DNA of 41,121 bases, from positions 21,578 through 62,698 of the forward strand of contig DYOQ01000008.1 in the NCBI GenBank assembly GCA_020720455.1, given 5' to 3'. The notes below the pieces were generated by a model, which was not told the DNA's origin, made no database searches, and was given only the letters and a program-made list of their open reading frames with translations. This DNA comes from Bdellovibrio sp. GTDB taxonomy: Bacteria > Bdellovibrionota > Bacteriovoracia > Bacteriovoracales > Bacteriovoracaceae. The position numbers were made by a program, and so were the translations under genes. Positions 8,086 through 25,816 of this stretch are shown here, in pieces (the first letter of the stretch is position 1; every line of letters starts with the position of its first letter).

Positions 8086-10434
8086 TTAGATGTTTTCGCA
8101 AAAATCAACTAAGTCATCTTCATGTTTAATTTTGACTTTTGCCTTGTGAAATATATCCGATCCCAATTTTTTATATGACAACTCGTACTCACCAGTAGTT
8201 CCACTATCTCCAGATGCTGGCAACTGAATACCTTTTGCTGTCTTTATTGGTAAACTCTCTGATCTCTTTTCACCATATAACTCAAAAGATAAAGTGCCTG
8301 TAACGCAATCACGAGAAGTCATTAAATAACCAAACGACTCTACAGCTGTCTGTGGAATCTCAACTTCCATTAAATCGCCACCTGCTAAACTTATCTTTTG
8401 AACAAAGTGTTTGCGATTTTTAGTTTCAACCCTCAACGTAAACTCTTTTTCGGCCGGAACCTTTATCTCACCTAGAACAAACACGTCTTTTTGCTCTCCA
8501 TCAATAAAAATTTTGTGCTTATACTTTTTATAGTTTGTAAGAACTATTTTTGCCATTTTATCACTTGTTCCATTTTGTTCACCACCATTGCTTACACTTT
8601 CACCAACATTTTTTGAAATAGATGAAGGATCTCGCTTATCTCCCTCTATGTCTTCAGACGTTACATCAACTTTTGCAACTTCTTCCTCAGCTACTGGGTT
8701 ATTCTCAACTGACTGATCATTTTTTTCAACTTTAACATTTTCGGCAACAACAGTTGAATCAATCTGAAATCCAATCATCGTTCTTAATATTTTTGAAATT
8801 GCACTTGTTTCAGGTTTTTCTACGAAAACAAAATAACCACCGCCGGCCACAATCAAGAGAGATGCAGCGATAACTGCTCTAAACATCATCTTAAATGAAG
8901 AACTTTTTTTCTGCGCTGGCAACACTGATATATCTGTTATCGTTTTTTTCTTTTTCTTTTTGATACCAGAACTAGTAGTAGTACCTGTTCCAGTCTTTTT
9001 CTTCTTTTTCTTTACCCCAATCGAGGTGGTCGTCCCTCCAGTTCCCAACTTCTTTTTTTTCGTCTCTAAAGAGGATTTTGTATCTATTATAATTGATGTC
9101 TTTGAACCTTCAATATTATCAGCATCTAATACTTCTGTTCTCATTTGAGTTTGCTCTACATTACCCGCACGCTTAAGAGCTTTGTGATCAGTCTTGGTCT
9201 GACCTGAAGAAATTTTATTTGCTACCGTTTTCTTCTTCTTTGCTGTATCTGCACCAATAACCGGGGGTTTTTCTCCAGAAAGTTTAATTTTCTTATCCGC
9301 GTCTTCAAAACCAAAATCAATCATATGAATGGGTTGACGCTTTGTTTTAGCTCCAGAAGTAGACGAAGACAATCCATTTGAACCAGTTATCGATCCAGCA
9401 CTCTTGCCTTGATCCTGCTCTCTTTGCAAATCATCTAGATACGGCTTGAGATCTATCTGTCCAAACTGAAATAGTTTTTCACGATCTTTCTTTATATCAT
9501 CTTTAAATAACTCTTTCGCAAAATATGCCAAGTCAGTTGGATTAAACTCTGAATAGTTAGCATACAAAAATTTAACAAGAGCTCTGTTTAGTTTATCTAA
9601 CGTCTCAAAACGGTCATCTCTACTCTTTGAAAGTGTTTTTAAAACAATATCATCCAGTTCTTTCGGAACATTTGGATTAACAGTAGAAGGGGCCGGAATA
9701 TTACATGCTTGAATCTCTTTTAGTATCGCCAATTCATTAGATGCTTTAAACAACTTACGACTGCACAACATCTCCCAAATTGTAATACCTAATGCAAACT
9801 GATCGTATCTAGAATCAAGTCTATGTCCATCTAAATACTCTGGTGCCAAGTAAGATAGTTTTCCTTTAATGGTTCCAGCTTGTGTTGCATCAGCAGCATT
9901 AGTTTCTGCTTTTGCTATCCCAAAATCTATAACCTTAACCGCTCCATCATAAGTGATCATGATGTTATGTGGGGATATATCTCTATGAATAATATTTGCT
10001 TTTTTACCTGTTAACTTATCTATAAATGTATGGGCATAGTGAAGGCCTTGACAAACTTGAGTTATAATATAAACAGATATTTCGACCGGGAAAACAAAAT
10101 TTCTCTCTTTAAGCTTATCTAGATACTCTTTTAGATTTTTACCATCCACATACTCCATGGCCGTATAGAGCTGTTCATTCATTAGGCCATAATCATACGT
10201 CTGTGCAATGTTTGGATGAATTAAACCAAACGTCACCTTAATCTCACCTTCAAACATCGCTCTAAAGGATTCGTCTTGAGAAAACTGTTGTTGAACTGTT
10301 TTTATAGCAACAATTTTATCAGCTTGTTCACCCAAGAACCTAGCTCGTGATATCTTGGCCATCCCACCATCAACTAGATGATCTAGTATCAAGTATCTGC
10401 CAAATCTCTCCAACTTTAAATCATTATCGGCCAT
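8086..10434 (-). CDS. Transmembrane Ser/Thr protein kinase with lysine-rich repeats and extracytoplasmic tail
   Basis: Residues 10-290 are a Hanks-type kinase: Gly-rich loop at 21-29 (degenerate, VDGGMAKIS), Lys45 in VAIK, HRDISPHN with Asp152 and Asn157, and DFG at 170-172, so it should be catalytically active. A linker follows, then three poly-lysine blocks (about 459-497) separated by Thr/Gly-rich spacers with the consensus tGTgtTtSsGi. A transmembrane helix lies at about 517-538. The last 240 residues face the periplasm and include a beta-rich stretch around 630-690 that recalls PEGA-type domains. It sits last in a minus-strand row after the PilZ protein, hydrolase and lipoprotein. An AGGAG precedes the ATG by 11 bases. 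A FliA-like promoter is possible at 10458-10484. Confidence 0.93.
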   Translation of the reverse strand: MADNDLKLERFGRYLILDHLVDGGMAKISRARFLGEQADKIVAIKTVQQQFSQDESFRAMFEGEIKVTFGLIHPNIAQTYDYGLMNEQLYTAMEYVDGKNLKEYLDKLKERNFVFPVEISVYIITQVCQGLHYAHTFIDKLTGKKANIIHRDISPHNIMITYDGAVKVIDFGIAKAETNAADATQAGTIKGKLSYLAPEYLDGHRLDSRYDQFALGITIWEMLCSRKLFKASNELAILKEIQACNIPAPSTVNPNVPKELDDIVLKTLSKSRDDRFETLDKLNRALVKFLYANYSEFNPTDLAYFAKELFKDDIKKDREKLFQFGQIDLKPYLDDLQREQDQGKSAGSITGSNGLSSSTSGAKTKRQPIHMIDFGFEDADKKIKLSGEKPPVIGADTAKKKKTVANKISSGQTKTDHKALKRAGNVEQTQMRTEVLDADNIEGSKTSIIIDTKSSLETKKKKLGTGGTTTSIGVKKKKKKTGTGTTTSSGIKKKKKKTITDISVLPAQKKSSSFKMMFRAVIAASLLIVAGGGYFVFVEKPETSAISKILRTMIGFQIDSTVVAENVKVEKNDQSVENNPVAEEEVAKVDVTSEDIEGDKRDPSSISKNVGESVSNGGEQNGTSDKMAKIVLTNYKKYKHKIFIDGEQKDVFVLGEIKVPAEKEFTLRVETKNRKHFVQKISLAGGDLMEVEIPQTAVESFGYLMTSRDCVTGTLSFELYGEKRSESLPIKTAKGIQLPASGDSGTTGEYELSYKKLGSDIFHKAKVKIKHEDDLVDFCENI
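8941..9064 (-). repeat. Lysine-codon-rich repeats inside the kinase gene
   Basis: Three blocks of four to six consecutive Lys codons alternate with short Thr/Gly/Ser spacers of related sequence. On the plus strand they appear as long T/C runs broken by ACCAGTTCC-type spacers. The block falls just before the transmembrane helix on the cytoplasmic side. The repeats are imperfect at DNA level, so they look old rather than recently slipped. Confidence 0.75.
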
Positions 10435-16710: not shown

Positions 16711-17235
16711 ATGATTAAAAAAGCAATATTTCTTGATCGTGACGGAACAATAATAACAGATAAACACTATCTTCATGATCCAAATGAGGTTGAATACCTC
16801 CCAAACGCTACGAACGGAATGAAACTTCTTCAAAAAATGGGATATTCCCTCTTGATAATCACCAATCAATCAGGAATTGGAAGAGGTTACTATACAAAAG
16901 AACAAATGGATTCTGTGCACATTCAAATGCAAAACGACATGATTACTTTTGGGCTGCAAAAATACCTCGATATCGCCTTTTGCCCCCATGGCCCAGATGA
17001 TCTGTGCAATTGCAGAAAACCACACCCAACTCTTATTAACGGTCTCATTTCAAAATGGAATATTGATCCAAACTCAAGCTACATGATTGGAGATAAAGAT
17101 ATTGATGCTAAAACAGGACAAAATGCCAATATCAAAGGATGCCTTATTCGAGGTAAAGCAGATCATGAGAAGTTAATTTTCCAGGACCTTCTAGATTTTG
17201 CTAACTATATCAAAAAGAGCAGCCGAAATAGTTGA
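16711..17235 (+). CDS. gmhB: D-glycero-D-manno-heptose-1,7-bisphosphate 7-phosphatase
   Basis: This HAD-family phosphatase removes the 7-phosphate in the synthesis of ADP-heptose for the lipopolysaccharide core. With the ATG at 16711 the nucleophile motif FLDRDGT has Asp9 and Asp11, TNQSGIGRG follows as motif II, and the family zinc site C-x-H ... C-x-C is Cys91, His93, Cys99 and Cys101. GDKDID provides the C-terminal acidic pair. The TTG at 16699 would add four residues and is less likely. There is only a 40-base gap to the divergent exporter gene. The last 45 bases overlap the convergent helicase gene. Confidence 0.92.
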   Translation: MIKKAIFLDRDGTIITDKHYLHDPNEVEYLPNATNGMKLLQKMGYSLLIITNQSGIGRGYYTKEQMDSVHIQMQNDMITFGLQKYLDIAFCPHGPDDLCNCRKPHPTLINGLISKWNIDPNSSYMIGDKDIDAKTGQNANIKGCLIRGKADHEKLIFQDLLDFANYIKKSSRNS

Positions 17236-18204
17236 TCTAATTTTTTTCCAAAGGCCCATTTTAAAACTATCCATTAAGTAAGCATTATACGATTCGCCCT
17301 TTCTTCCGCCTCTACCTATCATCTGAATAAGTTGATCCTCGTCATTTACTTTATAACCTATAAACACCCCTTCAATTGGCGGCAAATTTACTCCATGACT
17401 TAAGGCCGTCGTTGAAAAAATACAAGATGGAGGACGACTTCTTGATGATAGCGCCGATACAAACTTATCGACTTCACCACCGACGCATCCAATAGCATCT
17501 ATTTTTCTTCTACTACAAAAATCTAACCAGTGCTCGACATCTCTCCGATAGTGAACAAAATAAATTAAGGTGTTTGTTGTTTTTTTTAGTTTAAAAAAGA
17601 ACCTTCTGTTTAAAAATTTCGCTCCTAGATGGCCATAAAAAAATATTTCTTTAGGGGGGAAGAGCAGCTGACGATTTCCTAGATCGACAACAAACCCATG
17701 TTGGTAATTAAGAATTACTCCATGTTTTAAAAAATCTAAAATATCATCAGAAACTGTTGCACTAAGAGCAAGAAGATTGATCCCTTCACTCATGATTCCA
17801 ATAAGCGCTTCCCACATAACTGGCCTAAAACTACTACCCCAATGATAAAAGAGGTGTAGCTCATCCATTACGACTAAATAACTCTCTTTATCGTTCTCAA
17901 TAGCGGACATTAATTTTACAGAGAGTAGTTCTGGAGTTATTACCAACACTCCACGTTTCTCTTTCATAAAACGGTCTAACGATGCATCTTCCGAACATCC
18001 TATGCCATAGGTATCAGCAATCTTTCTTATACTAGCTGAAAATTCTAGGGCCAACGCCTTCAGAGGAGAAACGTAAACAACTTTTCTATCTAACTTGTTG
18101 ATTAAATCGCGAAGCATTCTAGTTTTCCCCCAAGCAGGAGGGGCAATAAATAGCATAAAGGTTGAATCTATATCTAAAACTTGCGAAAAATTCATTCTCC
18201 ACAT
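17191..18204 (-). CDS. Compact superfamily-2 DEAD/DEAH-like helicase
   Basis: Motif I is APPAWGKT (about 21-28), motif II DELH (114-117), motif III SAT (148-150) and motif VI IGRGGRKG near the C-terminus. Together they give the two RecA-like lobes of an SF2 helicase. At 337 residues it is close to the minimum core, without an N-terminal or C-terminal accessory domain, and the Q-motif is absent. SF2 proteins with DELH and a motif VI ending in GRGGRKG resemble Ski2/Mtr4-like or Hel308-like groups in these motifs. Translation probably starts at the ATG at 18204; the TTG before it is one codon longer. The opposite promoter region is shared with the kinase-like pair. Confidence 0.75.
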   Translation of the reverse strand: MWRMNFSQVLDIDSTFMLFIAPPAWGKTRMLRDLINKLDRKVVYVSPLKALALEFSASIRKIADTYGIGCSEDASLDRFMKEKRGVLVITPELLSVKLMSAIENDKESYLVVMDELHLFYHWGSSFRPVMWEALIGIMSEGINLLALSATVSDDILDFLKHGVILNYQHGFVVDLGNRQLLFPPKEIFFYGHLGAKFLNRRFFFKLKKTTNTLIYFVHYRRDVEHWLDFCSRRKIDAIGCVGGEVDKFVSALSSRSRPPSCIFSTTALSHGVNLPPIEGVFIGYKVNDEDQLIQMIGRGGRKGESYNAYLMDSFKMGLWKKIRSTISAALFDIVSKI

Positions 18205-18270
18205 CAAGCAATTCTTAATAGATCACCACAAGAATAACTTCATGAAATCACAAGTAGCGTACCAATTTAT

Positions 18271-18305: not shown

Positions 18306-19649
18306 ATGAGAAATAGAATTATCACTTACATCATATTTATTGCTATCTGCATGCCATCTATACTTTTTGGAAAAACAGTTGAACTCTTTAATTCTGATGG
18401 CACTCAAAACATCAAGTCATATGAAAAAAATTTCCCCAGCTCAAGATCTCCCAAATATGAGCAGGACTCAATTAAGCAAGGAGACTCATTTAAAATGCCT
18501 GATGGTAGAGAGTTTAAAGTTGAAAAAAAATTAAGCAGTAGTGGCAGCAACTCATACGTTTTTAAAGTTATCCAAACAAAACCATCAAGCGAGATAACGG
18601 GACAAGCTGTTGCTCTTAAAATTCCGATATCAACAGAAAAACAAAAACTTAATGCTCTAAGCAATTATGTCGAAGTCATGCAACGATTAAAGAGTGAAGG
18701 TATTCGAGTTCCAGAAATAATAAGGACACCTATTTCCAAAAATATCCCATACGTTGCAATGGAGTTAATTGAAAATCCAATCCATCTTATTTCTGCAATT
18801 AGAACTGCCGCAACTAAAGGAAAAGAGTCTCTCGAATACAAAGGTTTGATAAAACTCGCAAAAGAAACTGCCAAATTTACAACAGTTATGGATCTAAATA
18901 CTGAACAGGTAATCTATGATAACGCAAGACAAGAGTACGTTCTTATGGATGCTCAAAATTTTATTAGAAAATACTCCGGTTCACCACTTATTGAAGAAGA
19001 ACAAAACATATTTATCGGAGAAAATACAATATTGTCTAACGGAAAAAGTCAGTATAGGCCTCAAAGTGGCCAAGAAGAAGAACTTATTGATGATATAAAA
19101 AAGACAATAAGTAACGAGCGAAGCAAAATTCGAAATAGCTCATGGGAAAATATTAAACATCTAAAAGCAGTAATGGAAAACCCACCACCAGGAATGAGTT
19201 TTAATGAATACTATGATGTACTGAAAAGCTTAGTCGAATATAAACAGCTTCCAAGCATTGATCAAATACCTCACCTTTTTCACTTTCAAGTTAAACCAAC
19301 ACCAGAACAATTTTATAATTTGCTTCCCTTTAAAAGTGGAGGTATCCCATCTCCAGCAAATCTTTCTGCAATCTATCACAAAATCCCAAAGGATGAAAAA
19401 TTTCAACAATATTACAGTTTGATATTAGAAAAAATAGACGAACGGGCCCAGATTTTAGGTAGTAGTAAAAACATTGAGAGACAACAAAAGGCAAAAAAAT
19501 TAATAGCGGCAAAAGAGTTGATAATCGCCTCACTCGAAAAGCACAAAGCTGAAATTACCTCTTTACCAAATGGAAAAAAGCTTATGAGACAGATCGCTCC
19601 TCCGACTTGGTACAATAGATGCTTAGCAATGATTCTTAATAATTTTTAG
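18306..19649 (+). CDS. Secreted kinase-fold-like protein, paralogue 1
   Basis: I know no named family for the whole protein. A Sec signal peptide (1-22) is followed by a conserved start (ELFNSDGTQNIKSY). Residues 60-225 show protein-kinase/APH-type landmarks in order: MPDGREFKVEKKLSSSGSNS in the glycine-loop position, Lys105 in AVALKIP, Glu123 in a following helix, a hinge AMELI, Asp196-x4-Gln201 (DLNTEQ) as catalytic loop, and Asp215 in VLMDAQNF as metal-binding Asp. The Gly loop is degenerate and the DFG reads DAQ, so activity is uncertain. Residues 230-447 are helical, with PPPGMSFNEYYDVL and repeated IPK/IPH elements. The next gene is a paralogue 23 bases downstream. The FliA-type promoter abuts the ATG. 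Confidence 0.8.
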   Translation: MRNRIITYIIFIAICMPSILFGKTVELFNSDGTQNIKSYEKNFPSSRSPKYEQDSIKQGDSFKMPDGREFKVEKKLSSSGSNSYVFKVIQTKPSSEITGQAVALKIPISTEKQKLNALSNYVEVMQRLKSEGIRVPEIIRTPISKNIPYVAMELIENPIHLISAIRTAATKGKESLEYKGLIKLAKETAKFTTVMDLNTEQVIYDNARQEYVLMDAQNFIRKYSGSPLIEEEQNIFIGENTILSNGKSQYRPQSGQEEELIDDIKKTISNERSKIRNSSWENIKHLKAVMENPPPGMSFNEYYDVLKSLVEYKQLPSIDQIPHLFHFQVKPTPEQFYNLLPFKSGGIPSPANLSAIYHKIPKDEKFQQYYSLILEKIDERAQILGSSKNIERQQKAKKLIAAKELIIASLEKHKAEITSLPNGKKLMRQIAPPTWYNRCLAMILNNF

Positions 19650-19672
19650 CAAAACTACCGATAAATCTTTTG

Positions 19673-21022
19673 ATGATATTTACAGTTAAACTTTACTTAA
19701 TATTTATTACTCTTATTATTCCTACTCTACTTTTAGGCAGAACCATTGAGCTATTTAACACTGATGGCACTCAAAATATTAAAGCATACCAACGATATAT
19801 TCCTAAACGAGGTTCAATTCCAGGAAAAAATTCTGAAATACTAAAAAACGGAGATATTTTAAAAATGCCAGATGGAAGAGAGTTTAGGTTTGAAGGATTA
19901 CTAGGAAGAGGAATGAGAACTTATGTTTACCGCGCTATTCAAACAGCTCCACTTGATGAAGTTACAAATACCCCTATCGCTCTAAAAATCCCTTTAACAA
20001 GCTCAAAGCTAACCCTAGCATCCATGTCTTCATACACTGAAACAATTCAACAGGTCTTCAATCATGGTATTAACACAGTCAAAATAATTCATACACCAGC
20101 AACAAAAATAACACCATACATAGCTATTGAACTACTGCCTCAAACGTTACCTCTCACCTCTGCCATCTCCGTTGCTTCCAAAAAAGGAAACAATTCCGCT
20201 GAATACAAAGCACTTCTTAAATTTGCCAAAGAGACGGCCCATCTAACCAAAGTTGGAGATACACATATTGAACAATTAGTATTTGATGAAGTAAAAAAAG
20301 AGTACGTATTACTTGATGGTGAAAATTTCGTTAGAAAATATACCGGATCTCCATTAACAAAAAACGAGCCAAATATTCTAACCGGAGAGTATTCGCTACT
20401 GTCAACTGGAAGGAGTGTATACATACCGGTAAGCGAGGAGGAAGAACAGCTCATAACCGATATCGAAAATACCATTGAAAAAGAACGTTTAAAAATAAAA
20501 GACCAAAACTGGAATCATCTTCAATCGTTAAAGCAAACAATGAAAAATCCGCCACCAACTACAAGCTTTGACGAATATTACAAAACTTTACAAGAACTTG
20601 AGTTATATGGTGAGCTTCCTAGCTTTGAAGAGATTCCTCATCTGTTTAGTTTTGAAAAAAAACCAACCTCAGAGCAACTTTATAATCTTTTACGTTTTAA
20701 AAATGGCGTTATTCCATCAAATAGATCTATCAGTGAGATTTATAAAAAAATACCAAAAGATGAAACATTTCTAAAATTTTATGATTTATACTTAAGCAAG
20801 TTTGAAGAATCAATTGAGATAAATAGCGAAGGCAACCTTGAAGTCAATAAAGTCATAACTCACGAACTAAAAATGGCGAAAGCGGAAATTATAAAAAAAC
20901 TTTTAAGAGACAAACGTGCAATTCTTAAGCTCCAAGACGGAGACAAACTACTTGATAAAATTTCTGCACCAAACCTACTGACGATCTGTCTTCGACATAT
21001 TTTAAAAACACTTCAGCTGTGA
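19673..21022 (+). CDS. Secreted kinase-fold-like protein, paralogue 2
   Basis: It is similar to the preceding protein over its whole length, with the kinase-like landmarks at the same residue numbers: a better glycine loop LLGRGMRTYVY (77-87), Lys105 in IALKIP, Glu123, hinge AIELL, Asp196 in VGDTHIEQ with Gln201, and Asp215 in VLLDGENF. The GD-x-H form resembles aminoglycoside phosphotransferases and related small-molecule kinases. The signal peptide ends after LLLG (about 22). I use the ATG at 19673; the TTG just before it adds one residue. No clear Shine-Dalgarno is visible, so it may depend on translation of paralogue 1. The end overlaps the convergent recO gene by 21 bases. Confidence 0.8.
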   Translation: MIFTVKLYLIFITLIIPTLLLGRTIELFNTDGTQNIKAYQRYIPKRGSIPGKNSEILKNGDILKMPDGREFRFEGLLGRGMRTYVYRAIQTAPLDEVTNTPIALKIPLTSSKLTLASMSSYTETIQQVFNHGINTVKIIHTPATKITPYIAIELLPQTLPLTSAISVASKKGNNSAEYKALLKFAKETAHLTKVGDTHIEQLVFDEVKKEYVLLDGENFVRKYTGSPLTKNEPNILTGEYSLLSTGRSVYIPVSEEEEQLITDIENTIEKERLKIKDQNWNHLQSLKQTMKNPPPTTSFDEYYKTLQELELYGELPSFEEIPHLFSFEKKPTSEQLYNLLRFKNGVIPSNRSISEIYKKIPKDETFLKFYDLYLSKFEESIEINSEGNLEVNKVITHELKMAKAEIIKKLLRDKRAILKLQDGDKLLDKISAPNLLTICLRHILKTLQL

Positions 21023-24487: not shown

Positions 24488-25816
24488 TTACTCAAGAATC
24501 TTTTTAGCGGCAGCACCAAGATCAAGCCTACCACCACTGACAGTTTTTCCTTTTAGCGATTGCTCAGGTGCTACAGTTTGTAGAACTATTTTTTTAATAA
24601 ACAGAGCAAACCCTGCTGGATCATTATAGTATCTGTTATTAACATTTCGTGGGGCAATTGCATGTAATAGGGCCACTGATCCCGTTACATGTGGAGTTGC
24701 CATAGAGGTACCAGTCATTCCTCCAACCATATTGTAAGGTATCGTCGAATAGATCTCAGTCCCTGGAGCTCCTAGATCAATAAATTTTTGTCCAAACCCA
24801 GCTTGGCCATATATTTTGCCATCTTCATCAGTATTAGTTACCGATATAATGTAGTCACTCGAACATCCAGACGGAACATCTCCAACATTATCCACATTCC
24901 ACGCTCTATTTGCAGTAGCAACAACGTTTACAATACCAAGTTTACCCATTTCATTATAAATATCATTCCATAGTGGGTATTTTTCTGAATTACAATCAGC
25001 ACCATTAATTCCAAAGCTTGAATTAACAGCTACAACGTTTGCACCAGCTTGGCCTTTTGATTCTAGCCAAATTTTTTTCTGTTTTAATACATAACCGTAT
25101 GACGCAAGAACTGATGATGTTGAAAAAGTTTTCATTAGTACAGGCATCAACTTAACATCCCAATTAATTCCAGCAATATGCTTATCATTATCTCCCTTTG
25201 CACCGATGATTCCGGCAACATGAGTTCCATGTGATTCACCTGTTGGAACTGACGGGGCAGAATCATACCCGTAGTAATCATCTACGTATCCGTTGTTATC
25301 ATCATCAATTTTGTTTTTTGGAATTTCCCCTTTATTGATCCAGATATTATCCTTTAAATCTTCATGAGTAATGCTTATGCCTTCTTCAACAACTGCAACT
25401 ACAATATCGTTACCGGCCGCATCCGTACCGCCTGTACTATAACTCCAAGCTTCTGAAGCACCAATCCCAAACTCACCATCACCATTAATTGACCACTGAT
25501 CATAAAATCTTGGATCAGCGGATACTAACCTTTGAGTAACTGGATGATCTTCTTGAATGTACTCAAACTCTCCAGTGCTAAGAAGTGAGGTACGTAAAGA
25601 TGTAAACCCTCCTCCCTTTACTTCTGGTACATTTATCAAATAAATACCGAGATCTTGAACGAGAGGTTTTTCAACTTGAATGCCAAAACTTGCCAAAGCA
25701 ATTTCTTCAGGAATTACATTAATTTGTTTAATTTTTCTTTTTACGATAAAACTTTTTGAAAAAGACGGAAAACTACATAGAAGCGATACAATCGCCAGTG
25801 ATAATAGGTTTTTCAA
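24488..25816 (-). CDS. Secreted subtilisin-family (S8) protease with Glu in the Asp position
   Basis: A Sec signal peptide (1-20) and an inhibitor-like propeptide (about 22-98) precede the S8 domain. His196 lies in SHGTHVAG, the oxyanion Asn303 in VVATANR, and Ser371 in GTSMATPHV. The catalytic Asp motif, normally V-x-D-S/T-G, reads VVEEGI, so Glu144 takes the Asp position; the next bases read HEDLKDN as in kexin-type enzymes. The acidic insert DDDNNGYVDD at 171-180 is a likely calcium site. The start is TTG, supported by GAGGGG six bases upstream. Exported proteases of this kind are common in predatory bacteria. It follows rpmB. Confidence 0.92.
   Translation of the reverse strand: MKNLLSLAIVSLLCSFPSFSKSFIVKRKIKQINVIPEEIALASFGIQVEKPLVQDLGIYLINVPEVKGGGFTSLRTSLLSTGEFEYIQEDHPVTQRLVSADPRFYDQWSINGDGEFGIGASEAWSYSTGGTDAAGNDIVVAVVEEGISITHEDLKDNIWINKGEIPKNKIDDDNNGYVDDYYGYDSAPSVPTGESHGTHVAGIIGAKGDNDKHIAGINWDVKLMPVLMKTFSTSSVLASYGYVLKQKKIWLESKGQAGANVVAVNSSFGINGADCNSEKYPLWNDIYNEMGKLGIVNVVATANRAWNVDNVGDVPSGCSSDYIISVTNTDEDGKIYGQAGFGQKFIDLGAPGTEIYSTIPYNMVGGMTGTSMATPHVTGSVALLHAIAPRNVNNRYYNDPAGFALFIKKIVLQTVAPEQSLKGKTVSGGRLDLGAAAKKILE

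Follow-up and report, generated by a model that had tools for sequence, protein, structure and literature searches.

Two tandem genes in the window, the whole stretch of 41,121 nucleotides of DNA that was analysed from Bdellovibrio sp., a relative of the Bacteriovorax predators, probably encode Sec-exported members of an undescribed protein-kinase-like (PKL) family, nearest by profile to aminoglycoside phosphotransferases (APH), that would transfer phosphate outside the producing cell. Such a family is puzzling, since kinases depend on ATP, which is missing outside the cell, the periplasm included. Hardly any descriptions exist of bacterial kinase-like proteins that are exported by a plain signal peptide without an injection machine, and a whole exported family with intact Asp residues raises the direct question of the ATP source. 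The family would also bring an exported branch with a beta-3 Arg to the PKL superfamily, many of whose members have been found to do unexpected chemistry.

The tandem pair

The two open reading frames, proposed in the earlier note to share their whole length, are indeed homologous from end to end: they align over 442 residues with 47% pairwise identity (N-lobe 42%, C-lobe 51%, C-terminal region 46%). A homologue search of the own genome returned these two copies and no more. The equal numbering of K105, E123, D196, Q201 and D215 in both copies holds provided that copy 2 starts at ATG 19673; counted from TTG 19670, the copy 2 residues are K106, E124, D197, Q202 and D216. The features of the pair are the following:

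18306..19649 (+): copy 1, predicted exported kinase-like protein, 447 aa, member of the 46-sequence family
18306..18371 (+): copy 1 predicted signal peptide, about residues 1-22 (from the sequence and from the hydrophobic N-terminus seen across the family)
18531..18563 (+): copy 1 glycine loop LSSSGSNSYVF, degenerate and one residue longer than the consensus
18618..18620 (+): copy 1 beta-3 Lys105 (Arg in 43/46 members)
18891..18893 (+): copy 1 catalytic-loop Asp196 in MDLNTEQ (45/46 in the family)
18906..18908 (+): copy 1 Gln201, in the position of the catalytic-loop Asn (Gln 41/46, Asn 4/46)
18948..18950 (+): copy 1 putative metal-binding Asp215, at the place of the DFG Asp (44/46)
19620..19622 (+): copy 1 lone C-terminal Cys439 (family alignment, Cys count)
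19670..21022 (+): copy 2, predicted exported kinase-like protein (450 aa with the TTG start at 19670, 449 aa with the ATG start at 19673)
19670..19738 (+): copy 2 predicted signal peptide, about residues 1-23 (sequence; hydropathy test)
19898..19930 (+): copy 2 glycine loop LLGRGMRTYVY (G81 in 44/46)
19985..19987 (+): copy 2 beta-3 Lys, K106 by the TTG start (family alignment)
20258..20260 (+): copy 2 catalytic-loop Asp, within VGDTHIEQ (family alignment)
20273..20275 (+): copy 2 Gln, in the position of the catalytic-loop Asn (family alignment)
20315..20317 (+): copy 2 putative metal-binding Asp (family alignment)
20435..21019 (+): copy 2 C-terminal helical region, spanning about residues 256-449 (AlphaFold2 model, region comparison)
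20987..20989 (+): copy 2 lone C-terminal Cys440 (42/46 aligned; 41/46 in the last 25 residues)

The helical C-terminal region of copy 2 shows weak homology to that of the long relatives and is missing from members of about 300 aa that consist of the kinase domain only. The PPPxxSF[ND]EYY and IPK elements, earlier described as conserved, are common to the two window copies only and not to the 46-member family.

Export and the C-terminal cysteine

The N-termini of copy 1 (MRNRIITYIIFIAICMPSILFG) and copy 2 (MIFTVKLYLIFITLIIPTLLLG) are both signal-peptide-like and lack a lipobox. An N-terminal hydrophobic segment is found in 45 of the 46 members by a crude hydropathy test, which is not SignalP, and the sole member without it is a truncated frame. 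The full crude signal-peptide rule is passed by 38/46, and a lipobox-like pattern occurs in one member. The export signal proposed for both copies is upheld, and the proteins are very probably exported.

A lone Cys, which the earlier note does not mention, lies about 8-12 residues before the C-terminus and is followed by a short hydrophobic stretch. It is aligned in 42/46 members, falls within the last 25 residues in 41/46, and is the single Cys of the mature chain, within those last 25 residues, in 36/46. It is nearly as conserved as the catalytic residues, and it is retained where the helical C-terminal region is missing. The simplest idea is a possible disulfide between molecules. That the Cys belongs to a tail common to exported proteins was considered and rejected: in 400 kb of one relative, 115 ORFs are signal-peptide-like, and among them only the family member has a sole Cys within the last 15 residues.

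Fold and homology to kinases

The AlphaFold2 model of copy 2, built from a six-row alignment (pLDDT 74, pTM 0.61), follows the kinase order of elements, b1-b2-b3-aC-b4-b5-aD-aE-b7-b8; its catalytic loop (196-200) has pLDDT below 50, and its C-lobe after b8 is kinase-like in part only. A Foldseek search of this model against the PDB gave 232 matches at E<=0.001, of which the best 50 all have a kinase fold; the best among the matches listed is PRPK/Bud32 (E 2.5e-6). The viral structure library likewise returned kinase-fold proteins. A second model, of the relative L042, is poor (pLDDT 58), and its fold matches are again mostly kinases. Structure prediction and fold search thus agree with the kinase-like fold first suggested by motif order.

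Profile comparisons lead in the same direction. The best 60 matches of a 27-row family profile among all PDB sequences are protein kinases, with TTK at the top (E 4e-4, over the N-lobe). The broader 41-row alignment (A8) gave weaker PDB matches, with kinases only at E 0.01 and the unrelated PYL10 at 0.2. Using hhalign against a profile of APHs from the same phylum, a probability of 94.9% was obtained over 145 columns spanning the glycine loop, beta-3, the catalytic loop, and the DFG-like metal Asp; Ser/Thr kinases reached 27%, ABC1 24%, and reversed decoys at most 0.2%. The profile was also run on 722 sequences; reversed decoys made up half of the set, and 277 sequences were ORFs from the family loci. 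The only non-relatives matched were two Ser/Thr kinases (7e-8, 7e-7), both included since genome searches had already matched them, and the independently gathered APHs (2e-4, 1e-3); no reversed decoy and no non-family neighbour ORF was matched. The distant member L031 carries the textbook motif DLHAENIVY..LDFG. These searches support homology to APH-type and Ser/Thr kinases. A PKL fold is therefore regarded as established at the level of prediction, and it is very likely correct.

Family membership and conservation

The family alignment holds 46 members gathered from whole genomes of the phylum. A single-protein search of genome contigs found no relative. When 59 related genomes were searched at the protein level, homologues turned up in five other genomes from the taxonomic family of the window. 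Profile searches located members in 23/129 genomes of the order and 56/369 of the phylum. Four named relatives, from Bacteriovoracaceae and Bdellovibrionales, were found with a closer family alignment, and the family is present in Bacteriovorax BSW11_IV and MedPE-SWde. Members outside the taxonomic family of the window are mostly about 300 aa long and comprise the kinase domain alone.

The single window sequences have no Pfam match, and scans of members with Pfam, NCBIfam, PADLOC, and PHROGs gave sporadic chance-level matches, none significant. PF01636 matched none of the 27 members scanned, and PF00069 gave no match above cut-off in the window copies or the members scanned. No description of the family was found in the literature. 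The family is undescribed and covered by no Pfam or NCBIfam family, and by the Pfam threshold its sequences are not APHs.

The glycine loop, both Asp residues, and the Gln/Asn are among the best-conserved positions of the 46 members: glycine 81 is kept in 44, the catalytic Asp in 45, the metal Asp in 44, and an amide in the catalytic loop in 45 (Gln in 41, Asn in 4). Arg273 is present in 42/46, and G81, D197, and D216 are invariant in the broader A8 alignment. The family consensus reads LGxGNTT ... ALRLP ... IGDFHxxQxVY ... WxLLDW; the APH-like GD-x-H loop noticed earlier in copy 2 corresponds to its GDFHxxQ. The window pair departs from the consensus in having Lys for Arg, and Gly/Ala replacing Trp after the metal Asp. 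Degenerate members also occur: L077:4718-5728 has neither the glycine loop nor the metal Asp, and both Asp residues are missing from L080.

The earlier note had read Lys105 and Glu123 as the canonical lysine and its alpha-C partner. Asp196 and Asp215 stand as conserved residues, but Lys105 does not: the beta-3 position is Arg in 43/46 homologues and Lys in three, two of which are the window copies. The alpha-C reading of Glu123 fails too, with Glu at that position in only 11/46. Judged from these sequences, the family is not a canonical Hanks-type kinase and should not be filed there, since neither the beta-3 Lys nor the alpha-C Glu is a family feature.

Evolution and genomic context

Terminal branches of the family tree are long, with a median of 1.13 changes per site. 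The window copies are sisters (support 100/99), and their neighbour is a kinase-only protein from another genus; consequently, the pair reads as a lineage-specific duplication, and its Lys is most likely a reversion. Several genomes carry two or more copies. A second tandem pair, in a different bacterial family, lies at L077:3751-5728 (-). Its upstream copy, which has lost the glycine loop and metal Asp, is more degenerate than the downstream one, a pattern shared with the window pair. Tandem pairs are possibly kinase/pseudokinase pairs, with two cases only.

No neighbour recurs across distant loci, so the gene neighbourhoods give no operon clue and no pointer to a secretion route or substrate. 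In the window, a stand-alone short DEAD/Helicase_C protein (17191-18207, -, 338 aa) lies just upstream of the pair and is divergently transcribed. A canonical Ser/Thr protein kinase (8086-10434, -; PF00069, E 1e-38) is encoded about 8 kb away. An exported subtilase-family protease with a signal-peptide-like start (24488-25816, -; PF00082, E 1e-33) adjoins the nuo genes. An origin from phages or plasmids is unsupported: no relatives were found in viral contigs, nor by tblastn in phages and plasmids.

In genus g71, which is Bdellovibrionaceae-like, the best sampled, and probably Bdellovibrio, the family is found in 0/24 genomes. Patchy (56/369), with long branches, no conserved neighbours, and no member in g71, the family has the pattern of an accessory, fast-changing exported factor, not that of core predation machinery. 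The absence from g71 speaks against a function in predation generally but leaves room for an effector particular to some lineages.

Proposed function and alternative explanations

The proteins are most likely ATP-dependent transferases acting outside their own cell, and the odds are judged to favour catalytic activity of the family. The mature protein would consist of the kinase domain, followed here by the helical C-terminal region and the lone Cys, which may link molecules through a disulfide. The nucleotide phosphates would be held by the beta-3 Arg, or by Lys in the window pair, with the catalytic Asp serving catalysis and the Gln/Asn and second Asp binding metal. Phosphate or another nucleotide-derived group would then be passed to a substrate outside the producing cell. 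As the periplasm has no ATP, it would have to come from a compartment that does, most likely another bacterium's cytoplasm, reached after release; otherwise, nucleotides from broken cells could be used, or the protein could be a binding protein. Export combined with a need for ATP makes action in another cell plausible, though it is judged less likely than not. Delivery into prey would fit an exported, fast-evolving protein in a group known for predation. It is unlikely that the whole proposal holds at once, namely that these are Sec-exported PKL phosphotransferases of Bdellovibrionota working only in another cell's cytoplasm on its ATP, disulfide-linked via the Cys, and undergoing rapid diversification as effectors of predators or competitors. 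Of the two proteins, copy 2 is the stronger candidate for an enzyme; copy 1 may have less activity or play a regulatory part.

Several features count against activity, which could be altered or lost: the beta-3 Arg, the unconserved alpha-C Glu, and the Gln amide. They give weight to a somewhat unlikely alternative, an exported pseudokinase family in which the fold is kept without catalysis as a binding or scaffold module for a nucleotide, peptide, or cell-wall ligand. The location outside the cell, without ATP, and the plainly degenerate members L077:4718-5728 and L080 favour it as well. However, the catalytic Asp (45/46) and metal Asp (44/46) are retained despite about 20% identity and very long branches, and Arg at beta-3 is compatible with catalysis: in human choline kinase alpha2, the alpha-phosphate of ADP is held by Arg146, Asn311, and Asp330 (PMC4364537).

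Catalysis of another kind on the same fold (AMPylation, glutamylation or similar) is improbable. PKL proteins such as SelO and SidJ are known for it (PMC10870513), and the altered residues of the nucleotide site would suit a nucleotide bound in a different pose. Against it, the sequences show no specific link to SelO or SidJ and no significant Pfam or NCBIfam match. It is highly improbable that chance produced this order of motifs in a secreted helical protein unrelated to kinases. The missing Pfam matches of single sequences would agree with it, but the PDB profile search, the AlphaFold2 model, Foldseek, hhalign, and the 722-sequence test all lead to kinases, and decoys score nothing.

Comparison with known systems

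With APH (PF01636), the family shares the 145-column profile-profile match (94.9%) and the GD-x-H loop. hhalign places the family GDFHxxQ..LLDW on the Brenner-type loop HxDxxxxN, with Asn in 4/46 only. The family differs from APH in being exported, in its Gln instead of Asn, in its beta-3 Arg, and in a reduced C-lobe. Choline kinases (human CK alpha2, LicA) offer a parallel for the Arg, which in CK alpha2 contacts the nucleotide alpha-phosphate (PMC4364537), and two PF01633-type proteins of related genomes also carry Arg on the likely beta-3 (L103 FCRIY, L116 VFRFY). The family Arg would be the structural equivalent of Arg146, and by itself it does not mean a dead enzyme. In contrast to choline kinases, the family has no PF01633 match and no choline-site motif, and is exported.

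PRPK/Bud32 and Ser/Thr kinases (TTK, VRK3, YabT) supply the top fold matches of the model among those listed, with PRPK/Bud32 first, and TTK heads the listed PDB-sequence matches. Identity to PRPK/Bud32 and Ser/Thr kinases is 11-17%; the family lacks the VAIK Lys/alpha-C Glu pair, and no APE-type activation segment was recognised. Fam20C and VLK are eukaryotic exported kinases, with a kinase-like fold in secretory compartments that receive ATP; no sequence match to them was found.

A family kinase-like domain ends an incomplete 1144-aa protein (L188:885-4319, -), whose catalytic loop, DVRDMALVQEA, looks degenerate. Two exported fusions of 788-906 aa from the same phylum, L189:3229-5949 (+) and L190:5009-7375 (-), carry a large N-terminal part with FLARDGELL..DTGFSGTIPD, and the proteins have no Pfam match above cut-off. 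They share with the family an N-terminal signal, a C-terminal kinase-like domain that the family profile matches (ALKVA, GDLNPKN/GDMHSKN, IDSG), and a Cys near the C-terminus; they differ from it in the extra N-terminal part and in having the canonical Lys and Asn.
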